Positions 7,954 through 26,568 of a stretch of DNA of 26,568 nt are shown piece by piece; position 1 is the stretch's first letter; every line of letters starts with the position of its first letter. The stretch covers positions 1 through 26,568 of the IMG/VR virus record IMGVR_UViG_3300009790_002175; one strand, written 5' to 3'. The stretch is from a virus. Below the pieces are notes generated by a model. That model was not told the origin of the DNA and made no database searches. It saw only the letters and a list, made by a program, of their open reading frames with translations. The position numbers and the translations under genes were made by a program.

Positions 7954-8414
7954 TTCATTAACTCTTTTATTTCTTTATCTGTATAAGCATGTGCTTGGAA
8001 AAACTGCTTTAGTTCATCTTTATCATTAATGCTTAATAGTAAATTTATCTCTTCTTGACTAATATGAGGATATATCTTTGCAATAGCATCTGATATTTTA
8101 TTTTTCTTTCTTTTACTGTTAGGTGGTTTTATGTATGGGTGATGTTGTACTTTACTACTACCTACTGCTGTCATCAGTAACCATTGTAATTCTGGATATT
8201 TACTTACGTCAGAAAATTTATGATTTACTAATTCATTAACCATCCAAATATAATCTGGTGCAGAGCCACCTTGTACACTACTTGCATACCTCATCATCAT
8301 CCAGGCACTAAATGCCTTCTTTTGTTCAGCACTCAATCTATTATACCAGCCACGGTCTTTTTTATCTATGGCTTTCATAACTTCTGCTAAAGGTATTTGA
8401 GGTTTCTTAGCCAT
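7950..8414 (-). CDS. Possible clamp-loader small subunit (T4 gp62-like)
   Basis: A 154-residue, all-helical protein. The segment VNELVNHKFSDVSKYPELQW near residues 59-78, followed by LLMTAVGSS and a basic KRKKNK loop, has the helix pattern of T4 gp62 (PECMPAVYAMN then LMAAVP in gp62). T4 gp62 is 187 residues and works with gp44 ATPase to load the gp45 clamp. No gp44 or gp45 is present in this window, so the call rests on a weak pattern match only. It overlaps MTAN by 8 nt and the zinc-finger gene by 4 nt. Confidence 0.4.
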   Translation of the reverse strand: MAKKPQIPLAEVMKAIDKKDRGWYNRLSAEQKKAFSAWMMMRYASSVQGGSAPDYIWMVNELVNHKFSDVSKYPELQWLLMTAVGSSKVQHHPYIKPPNSKRKKNKISDAIAKIYPHISQEEINLLLSINDKDELKQFFQAHAYTDKEIKELMK

Positions 8415-8967
8415 TGTTGTGATCCAAGTATGCGTTTATATAATGCTGTTCTCCATCTGCTACAGTTTCGCTCCAATCTTTACTAGCATTTTCATCTGCT
8501 TGGTCACTTACATATTTAAAACATTTAAAATTTGTTCCTGTTTTTTGACATGCTTTTGCTATTGCATAGGCTTCCATTTCTACCACATCTGAGATAATGC
8601 CCAAATCTGAATCACCACTAACAAAATTATCACCGCTACTACAACACATATCATCTATTGGGTCTCCAAAACTAATAATACCACTTTCTTCAAAAGGTGT
8701 TTGTCCTATACCAAATCCTAGTTCACTGCATAACATATCACGTTGTACAAAGTTTTTCATTTCATGTAACCCACTACTAACACTAATACCACCTGCTGTA
8801 CCAAAGTTCCAAACAGTTGTAGGTTTATATCTTTCAATAAGTTTACCAGCACAAATACCTGCATTTACTTTTCCAACACCTGTAAAAAACACATTACTCC
8901 ATTTAGCCATAGTAGGTGCTTCTTCTTTTAAAGCAATTAAAATTATATTATTAAATTCATTCGTCAT
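8407..8967 (-). CDS. mtnN: 5'-methylthioadenosine/S-adenosylhomocysteine nucleosidase (MTAN)
   Basis: A 186-residue phosphorylase-superfamily nucleosidase, shorter than the usual about 230. Motifs: IALKEEA (Glu15/16, matching the catalytic-site acid near the N-terminus), GVGKVNAG (30-37), TVWNFGTAGGI (51-61), VVEMEAYAIA (128-137, the ribose-binding Met-Glu) and YVSDQAD (152-158, general-acid Asp155). It cleaves MTA or SAH to adenine plus the thio-ribose moiety. The region between residues 80 and 120 is compressed relative to bacterial enzymes. It overlaps the APRT gene by 11 nt upstream, so the product adenine has its salvage enzyme made from the same mRNA. A related nucleosidase specificity cannot be excluded. 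Confidence 0.85.
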   Translation of the reverse strand: MTNEFNNIILIALKEEAPTMAKWSNVFFTGVGKVNAGICAGKLIERYKPTTVWNFGTAGGISVSSGLHEMKNFVQRDMLCSELGFGIGQTPFEESGIISFGDPIDDMCCSSGDNFVSGDSDLGIISDVVEMEAYAIAKACQKTGTNFKCFKYVSDQADENASKDWSETVADGEQHYINAYLDHNNG

Positions 8968-9487
8968 AAGATATCACACTAAAAGTATCCATTCCGCAAT
9001 ACTCTTGCAGTTTAGCACTTCCTTCTAAGAAAGTCAAGTCAATTACACATGCATAATGCAAAGGTTGGCAATTAAAGTTTTGTAGCAGTTCAAATATAGC
9101 ACTTGCAGTACCACCCGTAGCATTTACATCATCCATAATACAAACGTTGCTGTCTGGCCCTAATTTTGCGTCCTGCTTTATGTTTAAGTTAGTTTCTGCA
9201 TACTCATATGTAAAGTGATGCTCAAATGTTGGGGGAGGTAGTTTACCTGGTTTACGAACTATGTGTAAAGGTATTTCCATATCTAATGCCACTGGAGCAC
9301 CCCATAAAAATCCTCTGGCATCCGGAGCCACAATATCTGTAACTTTATTACGCATACAGTAATCAGTTAGTTTTGTAACTGTATATTGAAATGCTTGTGG
9401 TTGTGTTAGAATGCTAGTAACGTCTTTGTACTGTATTCCTTTAACAGGAAAGTCAGGTACAGTAGTTATAAGTTCTTTAAGATCCAT
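8957..9487 (-). CDS. apt: Adenine phosphoribosyltransferase (APRT)
   Basis: A 176-residue type I phosphoribosyltransferase converting adenine and PRPP to AMP. Motifs: FPVKGIQYKDVTSIL (residues 13-27), DARGFLWGAP (56-65), RKPGKLPP (78-85) and the PRPP loop CIMDDVNATGGTA (116-128). Length and order match bacterial APRT. I chose the ATG at 9487 because it follows a purine-rich GGAAGAAGAG and gives the family N-terminus (MDLKELI...), with an 11-nt overlap; an in-frame ATG at 9517 would add ten residues and overlap the upstream gene by 41 nt. MTAN lies immediately downstream, forming a two-step MTA/SAH-to-AMP route. Confidence 0.92.
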   Translation of the reverse strand: MDLKELITTVPDFPVKGIQYKDVTSILTQPQAFQYTVTKLTDYCMRNKVTDIVAPDARGFLWGAPVALDMEIPLHIVRKPGKLPPPTFEHHFTYEYAETNLNIKQDAKLGPDSNVCIMDDVNATGGTASAIFELLQNFNCQPLHYACVIDLTFLEGSAKLQEYCGMDTFSVISYDE

Positions 9488-10229
9488 TCTCTTCTTCCCA
9501 TGCAAGATTCTCTTCATGTTCTTCCCAATACTCTGATAAGTCGCTATCTTCAGGATCTACATATGGGTCTCTCCATTTGTCTGTAATCCATCCAACTGCG
9601 GCTTCATAACTTTTGCCTGTTGTATCGTTACAGTCATAATTTGGATCTAACCATTCTTTATCATACCAAACATCTTCTATAAAATCACCTAAGTGTGTTT
9701 CTACAATACTAAAAACTAACTTGTCAGGGTCGAAAGGTTCGTCTGAGTCTACAAACCAACTTGCAAAGCCACCTTTTTCTGCACTATGGAAAAGCATAAC
9801 AGGTGTACAGCCTTCTGGAGTTTCACCTTCTGTTTCTATGCTTATATATGCTCCTTCTCTACCTTTTAAACAATGCCCTTCTATTTCCATTTCGCCTTCA
9901 TCGTAATCCCAATCTGCTTCTCCATCTGGTTTTACACTAGAAACAAAAAAGCCACCATCTGCGTAGGCGGCGTTTATATGCTCAATACCATCTAATTCAT
10001 ACCAACCAGGAATATCATCTCTATCTTCTAAAATAGCAGGAGACTCAGAAATAATATCTTCGTCATCGTCCCATTCACCTAAAGAAAGTACATGTGGAAT
10101 AAATTGTTCGTATGCACCATCATCTTCAATCCTAGGTACCCAAAATCTTACAAACTCATCAGTAACTTCTCCTACTGTAAGTTCTCCTCCATATCTTCCG
10201 CCGTCAATTCTATATCTATATTTTGCCAT
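9477..10229 (-). CDS. Highly acidic hypothetical protein, 250 aa
   Basis: A 250-residue protein with a striking excess of Asp and Glu, many Trp and Tyr, and little Lys. It starts with a beta-hairpin-like basic segment (AKYRYRIDGGRYGG) and becomes strongly acidic, ending WEEHEENLAWEEENGS. The middle contains GGFFVSS and GAYISIETEGETP strands. No family is recognised. The charge pattern is like DNA-mimic or nucleic-acid-binding-protein inhibitors, but also like many phage or host proteins of unknown role. It has one of the best ribosome-binding sites in the window (AGGAGG, 6 nt before ATG at 10229) and overlaps the APRT gene by 11 nt, so high expression is expected. Confidence 0.7.
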   Translation of the reverse strand: MAKYRYRIDGGRYGGELTVGEVTDEFVRFWVPRIEDDGAYEQFIPHVLSLGEWDDDEDIISESPAILEDRDDIPGWYELDGIEHINAAYADGGFFVSSVKPDGEADWDYDEGEMEIEGHCLKGREGAYISIETEGETPEGCTPVMLFHSAEKGGFASWFVDSDEPFDPDKLVFSIVETHLGDFIEDVWYDKEWLDPNYDCNDTTGKSYEAAVGWITDKWRDPYVDPEDSDLSEYWEEHEENLAWEEENGS

Positions 10230-10238
10230 ATTAACCTC

Positions 10239-10742
10239 CTAGTCTAGTAAATGACCTATATCAATTTCATTTGGAATTTTGTTTGCTTCTTTAACAAACA
10301 TAGCACATTGTGGATTATCTCTACTTTCTAAAGGTGCCAACAACATGTGTCCATTTTTTAATTTAGGAAAGTACCATTTTACATCTTGAAATATATTTGT
10401 AATTTTTACTTCATGACATTCAATGAGCCTACCACTCAAGGGATTTAACGTTGCAGTTAAGAATCCTCTATTGTTTAAACTAGTCAAAGGTATAACTTCA
10501 ATACCACTTAAATCTTCATCTGTTATTGCAATACTCCAATCCATAGGCATTTGTATATTGTGTTCTCCTATTTGTAAACATATTGCAGGTGCATAAAAAC
10601 TCTCTAAAAAGATTAGAGGTAAAAAATAGTAATCCATCCATTCTGGATCACTAGTGTCAAATACACCAAATCTGATATCATCTATTTCATCAGGTACTTG
10701 GTCTATCTCATATACGGAATTATCTACTGTTAATATTTTCAT
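10239..10742 (-). CDS. Hypothetical protein, 167 aa, second gene of the UvsW operon
   Basis: A 167-residue acidic protein of predicted alpha/beta fold with no recognised domain. It starts with MKILTVDNSVYEIDQVPDE, a beta-hairpin, and has hydrophobic strands around residues 40-62 and a C-terminal acidic tail. It overlaps the UvsW stop by 4 nt, so translation is coupled to UvsW, and is followed after 9 nt by the acidic 250-residue gene. Nothing visible points to a specific biochemical function. Confidence 0.65.
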   Translation of the reverse strand: MKILTVDNSVYEIDQVPDEIDDIRFGVFDTSDPEWMDYYFLPLIFLESFYAPAICLQIGEHNIQMPMDWSIAITDEDLSGIEVIPLTSLNNRGFLTATLNPLSGRLIECHEVKITNIFQDVKWYFPKLKNGHMLLAPLESRDNPQCAMFVKEANKIPNEIDIGHLLD

Positions 10743-12196
10743 TTATACTCCACTTTAGTAACTTGAAAAGGGAATCCTTGTTCTTTATAGAATGCTTTTC
10801 TTTTAGTTAAATGTCGCTTACTATACTTAAGATTACTTGTAATGTCGACAACATTCAAATAGTCTTTGTCTTCTGCTTTACGGATTCCTCTTCCGATACT
10901 TTGTATTACTCTTACGAAACTTTTACCTGGCTCTAAAAGAACCAAATTAAATATTCGAGGAATATTAATACCGACCGCCGCAACTCCGTACGTTGCAACA
11001 ATTACTTTATTATCCATTTCTGATATTTGTGCATACTCTGATTGCCTATCAGAAACTTTCATATCTCCACTTATAAAAACCCAATCAGGATTTTTATCTA
11101 TAAGTAATTCACCTGTTGCTAATCTATCTATTAGTACAAGTGTATTGCCTGTTCCACTTAACCCTTTAATAATATCACTTATGTGAGTTACTCTAGGGTC
11201 GTCTGTTACAAGCCATTTTAATTCTTGTGCATAGTTATTAAAACCTAAAACTCCATCTTGTAGTTGGAATATGTTAATGTCTAAGTTTGCTAACACACCT
11301 TTATCTTGTAGTTCTTTACTGCTAAGGTTTCCTGTAACAGGTCCTAAACAACATGTACAACCAATTGCTTCATAGTCATCTTTAGGAATAGTTCCTGTTA
11401 GTCCCCAACGAATAGGAACATTAGCAAACACACCACCTAGTAGATTTCTTAATACATCTGCTTTTGCTTTATGTACTTCGTCTACCATAATACATACAAC
11501 ACCTTGTAAGAACAAGTCTATTGGAAAATCTGCTTCATACTTTTTACTTTTCTTTTCTAGTATTGCAAGACTTTGCCAAGTACAAATTGTATGTGTTTTA
11601 TCATATTCTTTTCTATCACCAAACAGTACACCAACATCAAGACCTAAGTTTTTATAATCTCGTTCTGTTTGTACAACTAAATCTTTATTAGGAACAATTA
11701 CTATTGTTCTACCATAGGGCTCACATAAGTCGCTTAAGGCGGCAGTTATGAGTGTTTTACCGGCGCCTGTAGCCACTTCTTGCAAACTTTGTGGATTAGT
11801 TAAAAACTCATTAATAACTTGTACTTGGTAATCCCTTAAAATAATAGGTTCGCCATCTGCAGGATGCCCTTTGGGCCATGCTATGTTTTCATACCTTGTT
11901 TGTTCTATGGGTTCAAAATCAAACTTCCATTCATCACGTTGGTCATCTATTTCTATTTCATATCCATCTGCTTGTACAATAGGTATTAATCTATCCAACA
12001 AGTTCATATATGTTCTACCGCCAATATCACAATACCTTACGCAACCATCCCATCTGCCTAATTTATAAGCAGGCATATGATATGCATAAGGTAAAAAGTA
12101 TTTTGCTTCGTCAGAAATTTTACGTCTTGTACTCGGTGCTAAACCAGAGAACTTAACATTTACTTCATCACGTATTTCTAGAACACATTTAGCCAT
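10739..12196 (-). CDS. uvsW: UvsW-type recombination helicase (superfamily 2)
   Basis: A 485-residue SF2 helicase of T4 UvsW type (503 in T4), which branch-migrates recombination intermediates and unwinds R-loops, helping the switch from origin- to recombination-dependent replication. The N-terminal 115 residues form the substrate-recognition domain. Motifs: Q-like LRDYQ (120-124), Walker A ATGAGKT (142-149 region), DEVH box (239-242), GLTGT, then in domain 2 VATYGVAAVGINIP and QSIGRGIRK with the arginine finger. It is the first gene of an eleven-gene operon. The ATG at 12196 lies 5 nt after a perfect TATAAT and has no Shine-Dalgarno, so the transcript would start on or next to the A of ATG. 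Confidence 0.92.
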   Translation of the reverse strand: MAKCVLEIRDEVNVKFSGLAPSTRRKISDEAKYFLPYAYHMPAYKLGRWDGCVRYCDIGGRTYMNLLDRLIPIVQADGYEIEIDDQRDEWKFDFEPIEQTRYENIAWPKGHPADGEPIILRDYQVQVINEFLTNPQSLQEVATGAGKTLITAALSDLCEPYGRTIVIVPNKDLVVQTERDYKNLGLDVGVLFGDRKEYDKTHTICTWQSLAILEKKSKKYEADFPIDLFLQGVVCIMVDEVHKAKADVLRNLLGGVFANVPIRWGLTGTIPKDDYEAIGCTCCLGPVTGNLSSKELQDKGVLANLDINIFQLQDGVLGFNNYAQELKWLVTDDPRVTHISDIIKGLSGTGNTLVLIDRLATGELLIDKNPDWVFISGDMKVSDRQSEYAQISEMDNKVIVATYGVAAVGINIPRIFNLVLLEPGKSFVRVIQSIGRGIRKAEDKDYLNVVDITSNLKYSKRHLTKRKAFYKEQGFPFQVTKVEYK

Positions 12197-12201
12197 AGTT
12201 T

Positions 12202-12231
12202 ATTATACTACCATTTTCGTTGTATTGTCAA
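12202..12231 (-). promoter_or_regulatory. Sigma70-type promoter of the UvsW operon (TTGACA-18-TATAAT)
   Basis: On the minus strand, -35 TTGACA is at 12231-12226 and -10 TATAAT at 12207-12202, with an 18-nt spacer. The -35 and spacer lie in the last codons of the TonB receptor gene. The predicted start (about 12195) coincides with the UvsW ATG at 12196. Confidence 0.65.
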
Positions 12232-13950
12232 CATAAATTGTCTTCCACGATTGTTATATCCAGGAAGTACTTCTAATTCTTCATCTAATACATTATCAAC
12301 TCTTAATGCTAATTCTAATTCATTAGCAAAAGTTTTAATATATCTAAAAGATAAATTTTGTAAATCTTCTAATTCATCACCATCAAATATTCCAGGTATT
12401 CTTTCAAACTGTCCTCTATATGTAATGTTAAAATTATGACTTCCAAAATCTTGGTCCCAACTAAACACACCAACATACTTAGGAACTCTTGGTTGGTCCG
12501 TATCAGTGTATTTAAGTGCAACACCAAATGCTCCAAATGTTTGAGAGTATCTAAAACCTGTTGTTTCGTATGACCCCGTATTGTAGTATTTAGGTGCGTT
12601 CCAAACTTGTTCAGTTGTTATAATTACTTCTACTTCACCTGTATCATTTCCATCTTCATCATAGATAGGAACAGTTTCTGATGATGTAACATCTTCATAA
12701 AACCCTGGTGTATATTCAATTGCTTGTTCAAATTCATATCTAAATAAACTTAATACACCAAAACCAATTTCATACCCTACTGCTTCTTCAGGCAATAAGT
12801 CTAAGTTAGCATCTACATAGCCGTCACCATTTTGTTCATATAATGTAGGTCTTCTAAAACTGTTTCCAACATTTAAAAAGAATGGTCCACTTTCAAGTCC
12901 AAATCGTAATGCGTTTTGGTCTTCATTGCCAACTCTAAAACCAAAGTTATATTTCATGGCAAAGTCGGCATTAATATTTAAGTAAGCACCATAGTTATCT
13001 CTATTGTAATCATCACTTAATGTTTCATACTGTTCATGACTTGCATCAAGTCCATATGCAACTTGCAATTTTTGTGAAAGGTTAGTTTGGTCGCCTACTC
13101 GTAAATAGTCTGTGCTACTTTCACTATAGAAAGACATCCAATCACCTGTATAGTATTCTGATTTATCATGTGTTCTACCTATTGTAAGGTATTCGTTGTT
13201 TACTGCAATATTATACTTCTCACCATCTTGTTCACAATCATTTGATGCTTCAAATTGAGAATCATAACAGTTATCATAATCATATGTATAATCAGTATAA
13301 TTCATTGTAATTGTAAAGTCTTGTAAGTCAAAATTTAACTTTGCATTTCTATTACTGTATATGTCTTCTTCTACATTATCATTTCTAGCACTACCTTGCT
13401 TTACTTCCATTGCAGTATATTGAAGCCAATTAGTAGGTGCAAGACTTAAATATCTATTACTGTCTGTTCCAAATGATGCTGTTGCACTCTTTTGAATAGT
13501 GTCTTTGATTAATATTGTTCCAGCAATACTACCACTTCCATATACAACACTATTAGCACCAGAAATAATTTTAACTTCTTGTCCAGTTACTAATTCTGTT
13601 CCAAAGTCATACCATGCAGTACCAGGTAAATTTGCTGGTATGCCATTTCTATATACTGTGGTGTGTACATTTTGAGCACCACGTTCGTTATATCCTTGAA
13701 AAGCACCTTGTCCACCAGCAGTCCAAGTATGACTAGGTAGTAATGCTCTTATAAAGGAATTCTCTTTTAGTGGATCTGTTTTAACTGTTTTAGTCTGTTG
13801 TGCCACTACCACAACTTCTTCTATCTCCTCTGCTTGTGCTTTTGGACTTATACATATTGCTACTGAGAACAATACCATCCATACAAAAGCCGCATACATC
13901 GGAGAAAAATTGATATGGAAATTCCAGTCAATTTTGTTTCCGTTCTTCAT
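12208..13950 (-). CDS. TonB-dependent outer-membrane receptor
   Basis: A 580-residue protein with a signal peptide (hydrophobic core about residues 18-35, cleavage expected after AQA at 40), then a TonB-box-like IEEVVVVA (43-50) that matches the typical E-x-V-V-V-A form. A plug domain follows (SFIRALLPSHTW, then YRNGIPAN, then GQEVKIISGANSVVYGSGSIAGTILI, about 65-150). Residues about 155-580 are alternating-hydrophobicity beta strands with a C-terminal FMLTIQRKW, ending in an aromatic residue as outer-membrane barrels do. Family members import siderophores, cobalamin or glycans; substrate is not determinable. It is short (usual 650-800) but has plug, barrel and ending. It has its own promoter and a ribosome-binding site (GGAG). 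A phage-encoded receptor is unusual: nutrient uptake and receptor masking are alternatives. Confidence 0.88.
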   Translation of the reverse strand: MKNGNKIDWNFHINFSPMYAAFVWMVLFSVAICISPKAQAEEIEEVVVVAQQTKTVKTDPLKENSFIRALLPSHTWTAGGQGAFQGYNERGAQNVHTTVYRNGIPANLPGTAWYDFGTELVTGQEVKIISGANSVVYGSGSIAGTILIKDTIQKSATASFGTDSNRYLSLAPTNWLQYTAMEVKQGSARNDNVEEDIYSNRNAKLNFDLQDFTITMNYTDYTYDYDNCYDSQFEASNDCEQDGEKYNIAVNNEYLTIGRTHDKSEYYTGDWMSFYSESSTDYLRVGDQTNLSQKLQVAYGLDASHEQYETLSDDYNRDNYGAYLNINADFAMKYNFGFRVGNEDQNALRFGLESGPFFLNVGNSFRRPTLYEQNGDGYVDANLDLLPEEAVGYEIGFGVLSLFRYEFEQAIEYTPGFYEDVTSSETVPIYDEDGNDTGEVEVIITTEQVWNAPKYYNTGSYETTGFRYSQTFGAFGVALKYTDTDQPRVPKYVGVFSWDQDFGSHNFNITYRGQFERIPGIFDGDELEDLQNLSFRYIKTFANELELALRVDNVLDEELEVLPGYNNRGRQFMLTIQRKW

Positions 13951-13966
13951 TCTGTCTCCAGGTTGG

Positions 13967-14025
13967 TTAATTCTATATTAATTATACGTCTTTCTACTGA
14001 AAAGTCAAGTTAATTCTAGAATTAA
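13967..14025 (-). promoter_or_regulatory. TonB receptor promoter with flanking palindromic operator candidate
   Basis: On the minus strand, -35 TTGACT is at 14008-14003 and -10 TATAAT at 13986-13981, spacer 16 nt. A perfect 16-bp palindrome (TTAATTCT/AGAATTAA) at 14010-14025 ends one base from the -35, and a second AGAATTAA half-site lies at 13974-13967 across the predicted start. The promoter is thus bracketed by the same half-site, as in repressor-controlled promoters. The 24-nt leader includes GGAG. It is not a recognisable Fur box. Confidence 0.65.
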
Positions 14026-14038
14026 ATGCACAAAAGGT

Positions 14039-14063
14039 GAAGCCCGGAAGAACTCCGGGCTTC
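14039..14063 (-). terminator. Strong stem-loop terminator-like hairpin
   Basis: A perfect 10-bp GC-rich stem (GAAGCCCGGA/TCCGGGCTTC) closed by a 5-nt loop. It is on the transcript running from the AAA+ ATPase toward the TonB receptor, with ACCTTTTG following, so the U-tract is short. It could act in either direction. It stands out against roughly one-third GC surroundings. Confidence 0.75.
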
Positions 14064-14138
14064 TATGGTGCTCTAGTGGGGGATGACTAACGTTGAGCAC
14101 CAGGGAACCGTTAGCAATATATAATTATCTTATATTGC
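14064..14138 (-). ncRNA. Structured RNA: hairpin plus H-type pseudoknot downstream of the AAA+ ATPase
   Basis: Read on the minus strand: an 8-bp hairpin GCAATATA/TATATTGC (14138-14114) spans the ATPase stop codon. Next come stem 1 CTAACG (14114-14109) with CGTTAG (14092-14087), and stem 2 GGTGCTC (14101-14095) with GAGCACC (14073-14067). The stems interleave (S1a, S2a, S1b, S2b), which is the H-type pseudoknot order, with loops of 7, 2 and 13 nt; the last contains CCCCC. The terminator hairpin at 14039-14063 follows 3 nt later. There is no open reading frame of note here. It could be a 3'-UTR element, a processed small RNA or a metabolite sensor. Confidence 0.6.
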
Positions 14139-15167
14139 TCCAGACATGCAAGTTGTTTTGGCTAGTTTTTGCCAGTTCTCAGAATCCATTTTCTTAAGAT
14201 CCGCAATCTTTAAAACCATACGCAAACTAATCTCTCTTACGATGTCTTGGTTCTCAGTCATGAAGTCGATAATTTCTTTATCTCCTTCTTTCCCAAACCC
14301 ATACTCATCAAGCATACCATCTCTAACGATTTGGTTAATCCTTAGAAACTTATCTCTTTTAGAGTTCATTGTAAGGTCTAGGTAATGACATCTTGACATA
14401 AGTGCCGCCAAGTGATCCTTAATCTTCTTAGAACGAACGTTTTCAAAATCAACGTTAGTAATAAAGATACAACCACCTTTGAATTCAAACCTATCAGGAA
14501 TACCTTCCCTTCTAAGTGCTTGTGATTCTGACTTCCAAGTAATAGTTCTTTTCTTACCTGAATCAAGTGTAGCCTTAAGCATGTTCAAACATACTTCATC
14601 AAACAACACACTATCACAGTCATCAAATACTAAGATGTTACCTTTTTGTGAATTGTTATAAAGTGTTTGGAAAAGACCAATTGGTGTAACTGAACCTTTA
14701 ACAACTTCAGTTCTTGCAGGTTTACCAGCAACTTCTGTAAGCATGTCATAATCTTCAAGAACAGTTTCAACACCAAATGACTTACCAACTCCTGGAGGGC
14801 CACTTACTATCATACCTCTTACAGTACCTTCTGCTACTGCATGAGTCATTCTGTCCAAAATATCAAAACGTTCACGAATTCGCTCAATTGCTTGTTCGTC
14901 ACTTTCCTCATCTTTTGGAGTGTTGTCGATTTTAGGTTGTTCTGCATAAACACCTGGAGTAACATACTCTAAGTCTTTAGTAGGATCTTCTATTAAAACC
15001 CTAATACTTGCAAATTTATCACCCATCACTTCAGTACCGTTTACAGTAATGAAAGCACCTTTTTTACCAACATTAAGTGGCTTAAGAATTGGAAATACAG
15101 TATCAACGATTTCGTTTTTACGGTAAGTTCCGCTCTTAATTTTTACATAATTTAATGCGTTTGTCAT
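14130..15167 (-). CDS. AAA+ ATPase of phage type
   Basis: A 345-residue protein. The N-terminal 100 residues are a beta-rich accessory domain (VNGTEVMGDKFASIRVLIE). The AAA+ core has Walker A GPPGVGKS (123-130), Walker B GNILVFDDCD (176-185), a sensor-1-like FITNVDF and a C-terminal helical lid. It does not resemble gp44, because RFC-box and clamp-loader features are missing. Families like this in marine T4-like phages are of unknown role; ring-forming remodelling of DNA or protein complexes is expected. It has its own strong early promoter and a 50-nt leader with GGGGAT. It appears as a single-gene transcription unit ending in the structured RNA region. Confidence 0.85.
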   Translation of the reverse strand: MTNALNYVKIKSGTYRKNEIVDTVFPILKPLNVGKKGAFITVNGTEVMGDKFASIRVLIEDPTKDLEYVTPGVYAEQPKIDNTPKDEESDEQAIERIRERFDILDRMTHAVAEGTVRGMIVSGPPGVGKSFGVETVLEDYDMLTEVAGKPARTEVVKGSVTPIGLFQTLYNNSQKGNILVFDDCDSVLFDEVCLNMLKATLDSGKKRTITWKSESQALRREGIPDRFEFKGGCIFITNVDFENVRSKKIKDHLAALMSRCHYLDLTMNSKRDKFLRINQIVRDGMLDEYGFGKEGDKEIIDFMTENQDIVREISLRMVLKIADLKKMDSENWQKLAKTTCMSGAI

Positions 15168-15225: not shown

Positions 15226-15253
15226 ATTATACTTCTTTTTGAGTGTAAGTCAA
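15226..15253 (-). promoter_or_regulatory. Early sigma70-type promoter of the AAA+ ATPase (TTGACT-16-TATAAT)
   Basis: On the minus strand, -35 TTGACT is at 15253-15248 and -10 TATAAT at 15231-15226, spacer 16 nt; the start would be near 15219. Same -35, spacer length and -10 as the primase and TonB receptor promoters. Confidence 0.8.
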
Positions 15254-24468: not shown

Positions 24469-25551
24469 TTATAAGTACTTCGTTATGTTATATGGTATAG
24501 ATACATAAGGTAAATCTACTACTTCACGTATTTGTTCTAAAAATCCGGGCCTTAACGGATGGTCTAATTGGTCAACTACGTCCTCTTCTGCAAAATTATC
24601 AAATGTTCCCCAATCGTCTAATCTAGATATAGAGCATTCAGCATCATAACGTTCTGCTAGTTTTACAAAATTAACAACGTCATGTGCATTTGCTTTTTGA
24701 CATACAAATCTAAAGTGTATATTAGGACCTTCTTTGTGAAAACCTTTTTGAAATGAGCCGGCTATGTTTTTGTTTTCATGCATCCAATCTAAATTTTCTA
24801 TAAGTTTTTCAAATTTACCCGGTCTTCTGACTATTTCATATACTTCTTTAGATCCTGCGTCTATACTAATTTTAAATTCACTTATGTTTGGAAGTATTTT
24901 ACTGTCAGGAAGTTGTTTACTCATTAACAATCCATTTGTAAACAATGTAATTGTGTGATTTTCATTTGGTATCCAGTTAGTAACAAGCGGTCTCATTATG
25001 TTACTTGCTAAAGGATCGCCATTTCCAGTAAGAGTTATGTGTGTTCGTTCTTTGAAGTTGCGTAATAGTTTAACAACATGTTCTGCATAAGCATATTGTC
25101 TGTTATAATCGTCACCTTGTGTATGCAATATCATATCTGTCCTACAACTTGGACATGCAAGATTGCAACTTTCATCTACATTTACATATATGCTATAAAA
25201 TTCTTGCCCTTTATTGTTTATCCAATGCAAATCCCTTTCCATAATTCTACAATGCTCTACAGCACACCATGTAAATTTTTTATCTTCTACATCTTTCTGT
25301 AATTCTCTTGCTAAAGGGTTTGACCAAACATCTTCTAAACGTTCTAAATCTAATATATTACATATAACAAAAGGCAAATACATTTCACAGTTATCTATGA
25401 AACATTCGCCTTTTGTTGTTATGTTTAGACTCCTATGGGGTATAGTACAGTCATTTGTAATGTTATGTTTAAGTTCGTTGTTCCTTTTTGCTAAAGGAAT
25501 AAGGCCCTTGGTCGGTGTTTCCAATAATTTGTAATCTATTAAAGAGGACAT
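24469..25551 (-). CDS. Radical SAM enzyme with N-terminal SPASM-like cysteine cluster
   Basis: A 360-residue radical SAM protein. The 4Fe-4S/AdoMet motif is C129-x3-C133-x2-C136 (CNLACPSC), followed by LTGNGDPL, the GGE-like AdoMet motif, and an SKISIDAGSKE-like strand near 230. Unusually, cysteines 35, 50, 55, 64, 96 and 101 precede the core, in a pattern (GECFIDNCEM, then EDVWSNPLAREL, then CAVEHC) like a SPASM auxiliary-cluster domain, which normally lies C-terminal. Such proteins modify peptides, proteins or small molecules. It lies 3 nt after a Lys-rich 50-residue gene and close to a diiron protein gene. Substrate is unknown. Confidence 0.85.
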   Translation of the reverse strand: MSSLIDYKLLETPTKGLIPLAKRNNELKHNITNDCTIPHRSLNITTKGECFIDNCEMYLPFVICNILDLERLEDVWSNPLARELQKDVEDKKFTWCAVEHCRIMERDLHWINNKGQEFYSIYVNVDESCNLACPSCRTDMILHTQGDDYNRQYAYAEHVVKLLRNFKERTHITLTGNGDPLASNIMRPLVTNWIPNENHTITLFTNGLLMSKQLPDSKILPNISEFKISIDAGSKEVYEIVRRPGKFEKLIENLDWMHENKNIAGSFQKGFHKEGPNIHFRFVCQKANAHDVVNFVKLAERYDAECSISRLDDWGTFDNFAEEDVVDQLDHPLRPGFLEQIREVVDLPYVSIPYNITKYL

Positions 25552-25710: not shown

Positions 25711-25816
25711 TTGGTCTAACCCACTTACCATTTCTAAATACAGCAACTTCACCTCTATTACAAAGTGTATGTTCGCCTTCTACAGGTATTTGTGGTTCTC
25801 TTACTACTATTTTCAT
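25697..25816 (-). CDS. Very small protein, 39 aa, coupled to the diiron gene
   Basis: A 39-residue frame starting MKIVVREPQIPVEGE and ending in TGA at 25697. Its ATG overlaps the diiron gene's TGA in the sequence ATGA, a typical coupled junction in this genome, which makes it more convincing than its size alone. It has one Cys (LCNRGEVAVF), a short beta-like middle and a charged end. No family recognised. A leader-core-like precursor peptide is a possibility because the radical SAM gene is near, but no such hallmark is visible. Confidence 0.55.
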   Translation of the reverse strand: MKIVVREPQIPVEGEHTLCNRGEVAVFRNGKWVRPNEDK

Positions 25817-26568
25817 TTTAATGGTTTACTTAATTCTTCCCAACTTGTTTCATAATCACTATCGCCTTCTGCATAACCCATAACACCTAATTTTTCATAT
25901 TCAGGTACTAGGTCATCTGTTAATAGTCCAATTTTTTTAAGGTTAGGCATAATCCTACTAAACAATACATCTTGGAATTGTGTTTGAAATATGTTTTCTT
26001 TTTGATATGTATCAGTATAATCTAAATCCATACCATATTTTTCCCATACATCATATGCTCGTAATCTATTTCTACTTACTGTACAGGCTTCTAAGGCAAA
26101 ATTTGCTCTATCAACTACTTCTTCTTCACTTAATGTAGTAACATAGTCTTTTAAATAGTTAATACCAAATGTAACGTGCCTTGCTTCATCTCTAATAATG
26201 TATTCTAACATTTGTTCGTACACAGGATCGTTAGTTGCTGACTTGGCGGCGTTAAAGGCGGCTAATGCCAATCCTTCTATGACTACTTGCATACCAATAA
26301 ACTTTAAATCCCAACGAGGATCAGTTAATATTTTGTCTAATAGTCCTTTTAATGCTCTACCTATGGGCCAACTACGTTGTAAACGTTGCTGTAAGTATTT
26401 GTTAAATGCTTCTACATGTCTTGCTTCATCGAAAGTTTGCGATGCGGCGTAAAGTTTTGCGTTATAGGTCGGCGCACAACAGGCTAACTGCGATGCTACT
26501 AATAATGCTCCTTGTTCCCCATGCAAAAATTGACTTGTTGCCCAACTGTTTAAGTCTTTCATGAACTC
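25813..26568 (-). CDS. Ferritin-like diiron protein, 5' end beyond the window
   Basis: The frame stays open through the right edge (two more codons before the internal Met at 26562), so the N-terminus is probably outside. Numbering from that Met, all six diiron ligands of a ferritin-like four-helix bundle are present: Glu16 (GEQGAL), Glu46/His49 (DEARH), Glu96 (VIEGLAL) and Glu126/His129 (DEARH). The 30-50-30 spacing is closer to ferritin-like oxidases/oxygenases than to canonical ribonucleotide reductase R2, where the middle gap is longer. It would bind two irons and activate O2; substrate unknown. It is followed by the 39-residue gene with an ATGA overlap and then the radical SAM gene. Confidence 0.75.
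   Translation of the reverse strand, partial: EFMKDLNSWATSQFLHGEQGALLVASQLACCAPTYNAKLYAASQTFDEARHVEAFNKYLQQRLQRSWPIGRALKGLLDKILTDPRWDLKFIGMQVVIEGLALAAFNAAKSATNDPVYEQMLEYIIRDEARHVTFGINYLKDYVTTLSEEEVVDRANFALEACTVSRNRLRAYDVWEKYGMDLDYTDTYQKENIFQTQFQDVLFSRIMPNLKKIGLLTDDLVPEYEKLGVMGYAEGDSDYETSWEELSKPLK

Follow-up and report, generated by a model that had tools for sequence, protein, structure and literature searches.

The question raised by this locus is what a gene for a TonB-dependent outer-membrane receptor (TBDR) is doing among the replication genes of a phage. The whole stretch of DNA analysed (26,568 nucleotides, called the window below) is a fragment of a marine jumbo phage, kin of the PA5oct group of Pseudomonas jumbo phages, which are classed as Arenbergviridae and are its nearest cultured relatives (58% for TerL and 56% for UvsW). 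Related contigs reach 216,820 bases, none of them known to be complete, and no tRNA was found within the window. The presence of a TBDR suggests that the host is Gram-negative.

A complete receptor gene among phage replication genes

The receptor gene occupies positions 12208–13950, exactly as proposed in an earlier note on this DNA, and lies on the minus strand; the plus strand is packed with stop codons in this interval. Its 580-residue product was assigned from its translation, Pfam matches and predicted structure, and all the parts named in that note (signal peptide, TonB box, plug and barrel terminus) were found. The signal peptide (residues 1–40; 13831–13950, minus strand), delimited by eye and not by a predictor, is a hydrophobic leader that terminates in AQA (residues 38–40), the likely cleavage site being just after this motif; most relatives have an A-x-A-type leader end. 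The TonB box, EEIEEVVVVAQQ (residues 41–52; 13795–13830, minus strand), was defined in an alignment of 44 members, in which E44 and V48 are invariant. The plug core (residues 71–152; 13495–13740, minus strand) was delimited by Pfam and by the alignment: Plug PF07715 matched residues 71–145 of the window protein with 29.4 bits (cut-off 23.9), and matched 22 of the 22 relatives scanned. The match begins only at position 32 of the 107-position model, as the plug is short at its N-terminal end. The beta-barrel (residues 155–580; 12211–13488, minus strand) ends in W580, the terminal aromatic residue of the predicted barrel, which is near-invariant in the 44 members. The barrel model PF00593 gave no match at E 0.001 with the window protein or at E 0.01 with 22 members; the barrel was recognised solely by profile-profile and fold comparison, and PF00593 was taken as a detection aid, not as a defining feature. 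Two invariant cysteines of the 44-member alignment, C228 and C239, lie in a predicted extracellular loop (13234–13275, minus strand) and probably form a disulphide. A ribosome-binding site, GGAGA, precedes the gene (13955–13959, minus strand).

The N-region of the leader (window 13901–13950 and homologues) was unusually conserved, reading DKNFHINFSPLY in many members and MEEFFHKH in others. The idea that 'NFHINFSP' is a phage secretion signal shared with other proteins was rejected, as a motif scan of the available loci placed it at receptor N-termini alone.

Single-protein searches of PHROGs, the PDB and the INPHARED phages gave no match, no INPHARED record matching the receptor, which places the protein at a large distance from known sequences; a PDB match was obtained only with an alignment. 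The profile of the relatives then found Escherichia coli BtuB as best PDB profile match (E 2e-5), spanning plug and barrel, and hhalign of the family profile against BtuB gave a probability of 98.2 (E 4.8e-14, 24% identity, 462 columns). AlphaFold2 models had a pLDDT of 73 with 22 sequences, and of 82.3 with 44 sequences (pTM 0.79). With the latter model, the best Foldseek match in the PDB was again BtuB (2gsk; E 1.1e-18, TM 0.69/0.68, 17% identity), followed by PirA, ZnuD, PfeA and Cir, all of them TBDRs among the matches listed. The plug-and-barrel fold, the loss of which would have spoken against the earlier note, is thus retained in the prediction. The model is that of a TBDR with a predicted 22-stranded barrel, a strand number reached by merging two pairs, since DSSP gives more segments.

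The receptor shares with BtuB (PDB 2gsk, 1nqe and 3m8d) the plug-plus-barrel fold, the TonB box and a similar length. It differs from BtuB by an identity of only 17–24%, by the invariant cysteines C228 and C239 of a predicted extracellular loop and by a box-to-plug-core segment that is 16 residues shorter in 43 of the 44 members (33 residues separate the TonB box from the plug-core GGxG, compared with 49 in BtuB; the last member had no pattern match). Its score with the BtuB equivalog model TIGR01779 was 26 bits, far under the cut-off of 599.7; some members scored better with haemoglobin/transferrin-receptor models, and SusC-type NCBIfam models matched none of 22 members. Two pattern scans of cellular genome contigs found no relative, and a search of plasmid TBDRs returned btuB as the sole match (E 0.02, 22% identity). 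With the searches used, the family appears to have no detected cellular relative above about 22–24% identity.

As the earlier note had stated, the gene lies between core replication genes: a UvsW-type DNA helicase downstream (10739–12196, minus strand), and an AAA ATPase (phrog_1250; 14130–15167, minus strand), an exonuclease, UvsX and gp32 upstream. Both immediate neighbours were assigned by domain and PHROG matches. The AAA ATPase, which in the subclade of the window is usually the next gene upstream of the receptor, is annotated as 'unknown function' in phrog_1250 and has its own strict promoter at 15226–15253. PA5oct, Cassandra and Callisto (Arenbergviridae) have the same TerL-SSB-UvsX-UvsW order but no receptor; in Cassandra, nothing but a homing endonuclease and small genes separates UvsX from UvsW. 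Elsewhere in the window, an MTA/SAH-type nucleosidase adjoins an adenine phosphoribosyltransferase (8407–9517), possibly a purine or methylthioadenosine salvage pair, and a radical SAM protein (24469–25551) is followed by a partial ferritin-like di-iron protein (25813–26568) that weakly matches R2-like oxidase, AurF and aldehyde decarbonylase.

A pattern scan placed a promoter, TTGACT-N16-TATAAT, upstream of the receptor gene (13981–14008, minus strand), and it is conserved in relatives: promoters of this kind precede 75 of 92 receptors, 62 of 75 AAA genes and no UvsX gene, and the window contains three such sites, compared with 0.04 expected by chance. The receptor promoter is absent in L018–L022. 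It is preceded by the intrinsic terminator of the upstream AAA gene (14039–14063, minus strand; computed in the window, conservation judged by eye), which insulates the receptor gene. A promoter-like TTGACA-N18-TATAAT of the downstream UvsW gene (12202–12231, minus strand; pattern scan) overlaps the 3' end of the receptor gene. The receptor gene is therefore a predicted separate transcription unit under a phage promoter of a general class, and the sigma-70 consensus of this promoter suggests that transcription is probably early. The earlier note was right to give the gene a promoter of its own, which is real and conserved, but read too much into it in speaking of tight, timed regulation, as a 217-kb relative has 27 copies of the strict pattern, which is also found before the AAA gene.

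Distribution, selection and allele exchange

A receptor scan of IMG/VR returned 45 loci, most of which share the gene order of the window and have the receptor in the interval from the AAA gene to UvsW, or nearby. In a survey anchored on UvsW, for which the best 80 of 200 loci were taken (79 informative, one uninformative), a homologue was present upstream of UvsW in 70 of the 79 informative loci and absent in nine, the latter including near-identical records. The phage-encoded TBDR put forward in the earlier note is thus confirmed by the Plug match, the TonB box, the fold and synteny in dozens of contigs, and the same gene is found at the same locus in related phages.

The absences require three changes on the UvsW tree. 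Two receptor-less loci, L076 and L078, carry a deletion scar, in which the promoter, the terminator, the receptor start MNKMFTFAATMLLAF and the tail NNKGREINLTIQYN remain and the body is missing; the remaining receptor-less sites inspected are clean, with 114–120 bases. A small ORF (MKTFKLKVIGKWTGIVVGGFILFQILCHFHCLSMM) was observed between the receptor remnants of L078 (5488–6001). No record was seen to contain two separate receptor genes, paired matches being pieces of one gene.

In ten loci (L016, L028–L034, L043 and L045), the receptor lies away from UvsW, immediately downstream of a nucleosidase-like (MTAN) gene, and has no promoter of its own. These contigs lack the other genes of the window; one of them encodes a large virion protein whose best match is in the PA5oct group. 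On the receptor tree, L016, L043 and L028/L030 are scattered among the UvsW-site receptors, which indicates that the move occurred more than once, or back.

The receptor is under purifying selection (dN/dS 0.06–0.26). Its dS is about that of the neighbouring genes, and its dN is mostly 2–6 times higher than theirs. For topology tests, clades were fixed on the UvsW tree ahead of any inspection of the receptor tree. Receptor data rejected the UvsW clade composed of the window, L007, L011, L013, L037 and L056 (AU p 0.0003), and also the grouping of the window with L007 alone (AU p 0.01). Furthermore, between L002 and L009 the receptor dS is 0.82, but that of AAA and UvsW is 0.19–0.25. The conflict between the two trees, together with this dS gap, indicates that receptor alleles have been exchanged between phages. 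In keeping with an auxiliary metabolic gene, the receptor gene is flanked by phage genes in a phage genome, under selection and optional; it may alter host metabolism.

Conservation along the protein was uneven. Mean column entropy in the 44 members was 0.76 bits for the plug, 0.81 for the TonB box, 1.46 for the strands and 1.77 for the linker after the box. Loops were assigned by ourselves from DSSP of the predicted model; those predicted to be extracellular at residues 186–195, 226–239, 342–346 and 367–387 were strongly conserved (0.65–1.08 bits), and indel-rich sites were found near residues 162–165, 313, 436 and 523.

A proposed energised importer and its alternatives

We consider it moderately probable that this marine jumbo phage makes a complete TonB-dependent outer-membrane importer, which would supply a scarce nutrient to the infected cell. 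The host RNA polymerase would read the consensus sigma-70-type promoter early in infection, and the protein would be exported via Sec, after which the host BAM machine would fold it into the outer membrane. Host TonB-ExbB-ExbD would then energise it via the conserved TonB box; 18 records of related phages yielded neither TonB/TonB_C nor an Fe/B12-binding protein of the periplasm, which suggests that receptor function depends on the host. A chelated metal or cofactor in short supply would pass through the receptor into the periplasm, from where host ABC transporters would continue; it is probably either a corrinoid or an iron chelate (haem or a siderophore). Phage replication may draw on the imported product, for instance through the class Ia ribonucleotide reductase of close relatives, which depends on iron.

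Among the roles listed in the earlier note, nutrient import fits best, and replacement of the host receptor or a decoy is less favoured. The constraint on TonB box, plug and loops is expected of a functional, energised importer whose members share a ligand site, and not of a mere mask or decoy; in particular, a passive decoy needs no TonB box, so its conservation, under purifying selection, favours transport.

As for the substrate, an iron chelate or haem is our tentative first choice, at somewhat under even confidence. Close relatives encode NrdA/NrdB of class Ia, above curated cut-offs in the one classified, and class Ia ribonucleotide reductase is an iron-dependent enzyme; the nearest relative would accordingly need iron, and an obvious need for B12 is removed. 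A B12-dependent reductase was considered as the reason for a B12 importer and rejected, as the classified close relative has class Ia. The complete sufBCDS operon of a 217-kb relative fits the iron theme. A substrate other than iron chelate, haem or corrinoid is a possibility to be taken seriously, and a corrinoid is unlikely.

The sufB-sufC-sufD-sufS operon just mentioned was observed in the record of L088 (L148:419–2862 and L149:278–2748), with SufB above curated cut-offs and SufC, SufD and SufS below theirs. A coupling between receptor and SUF genes was not supported, since a SufB/D-type gene (L147) is present in the record of L128, whose site has no receptor. Pfam matches in the 217-kb relative (L131–L141) also included a CsgG curli-secretion channel, a GH6 glycosidase, a class 3 lipase, a ketoacyl synthase, a fatty acid desaturase, UvdE, IMPDH, CHASE2 and a eukaryotic-type PMM.

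A special case of import, compatible with the general proposal, is that the protein is a cobalamin (vitamin B12) importer proper, a phage BtuB. BtuB is its best match in the PDB by profile and by fold, the length is similar, and a B12-binding-domain protein is encoded in one 217-kb relative. We nevertheless find it improbable: the TIGR01779 score is a small fraction of the cut-off, the reductase of relatives is of class Ia and not B12-dependent, the B12-binding domain occurs in 1 of 18 records, and a cobalamin riboswitch was found neither in the window nor in seven stretches of 20 kb from the 217-kb relative.

Superinfection exclusion or receptor interference would have the phage barrel compete with, displace or mask a host TBDR used by rival phages or bacteriocins. 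TBDRs commonly serve as phage receptors, the gene is accessory, its alleles are exchanged between phages, and its amino acids change faster than those of neighbouring genes in most comparisons; allele exchange and the repeated absence of the receptor would also suit an arms-race role. However, conservation is highest in the TonB box and plug and extends to several extracellular loops, neither of which a blocker requires, and the loops show no sign of being the hypervariable part, the indel-rich sites apart. We hold exclusion to be quite unlikely. Finally, TBDRs are ordinarily cellular genes, but host DNA, contig chimerism or a passenger gene in decay can be dismissed as an explanation, since the same gene at the same site between phage genes in dozens of independent contigs leaves no room for chance, chimera or host contamination, no cellular relative was found in the two scans of cellular genome contigs, and dN/dS is well below 1.

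Precedents and significance

The Lc porin of lambdoid phage PA-2 is a phage-made beta-barrel in the host outer membrane; phage outer-membrane proteins of this type work as passive porins or in lysogenic conversion rather than as TonB-coupled importers. In a viral-structure Foldseek search, the sole convincing match was BFVD A0A8D9FQQ5, 'TonB-dependent receptor SusC [uncultured marine phage]'. It is probably the SusC protein of the marine megaphage Mar_Mega_1, a putative TBDR also reported in LR745206 and proposed to raise carbohydrate uptake (PMC9723777). Like the receptor studied here, the Mar_Mega_1 protein is a TBDR from a marine phage of very large size, with a proposed role in nutrient uptake; A0A8D9FQQ5 is structurally distant from ours (805 residues, 11% identity, TM 0.54/0.41). 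The main text of the Mar_Mega_1 paper (PMC9723777) makes a short mention of it, without analysis of locus, selection or presence and absence, and TonB goes unmentioned in a jumbo-phage review of 2026 (PMC13282480). Mar_Mega_1 SusC was the only precedent found in the literature searched, outside which lay most subscription papers and all preprints, and priority is therefore uncertain.

It is an evenly balanced proposition that marine relatives of PA5oct carry phage-specific TonB-dependent importers with a shortened plug, in a separate and probably early unit and with exchanged alleles, which would re-equip the outer-membrane uptake of their hosts. Enzymes and some parts of transporters are known from phage genomes; an active TonB-coupled importer would let a virus alter the uptake of an ocean bacterium. 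As TBDRs are also phage receptors, the gene stands at the junction of nutrition and competition between phages, and the family supplies natural presence/absence pairs, one of them scarred, together with exchanged alleles, which make the question testable.
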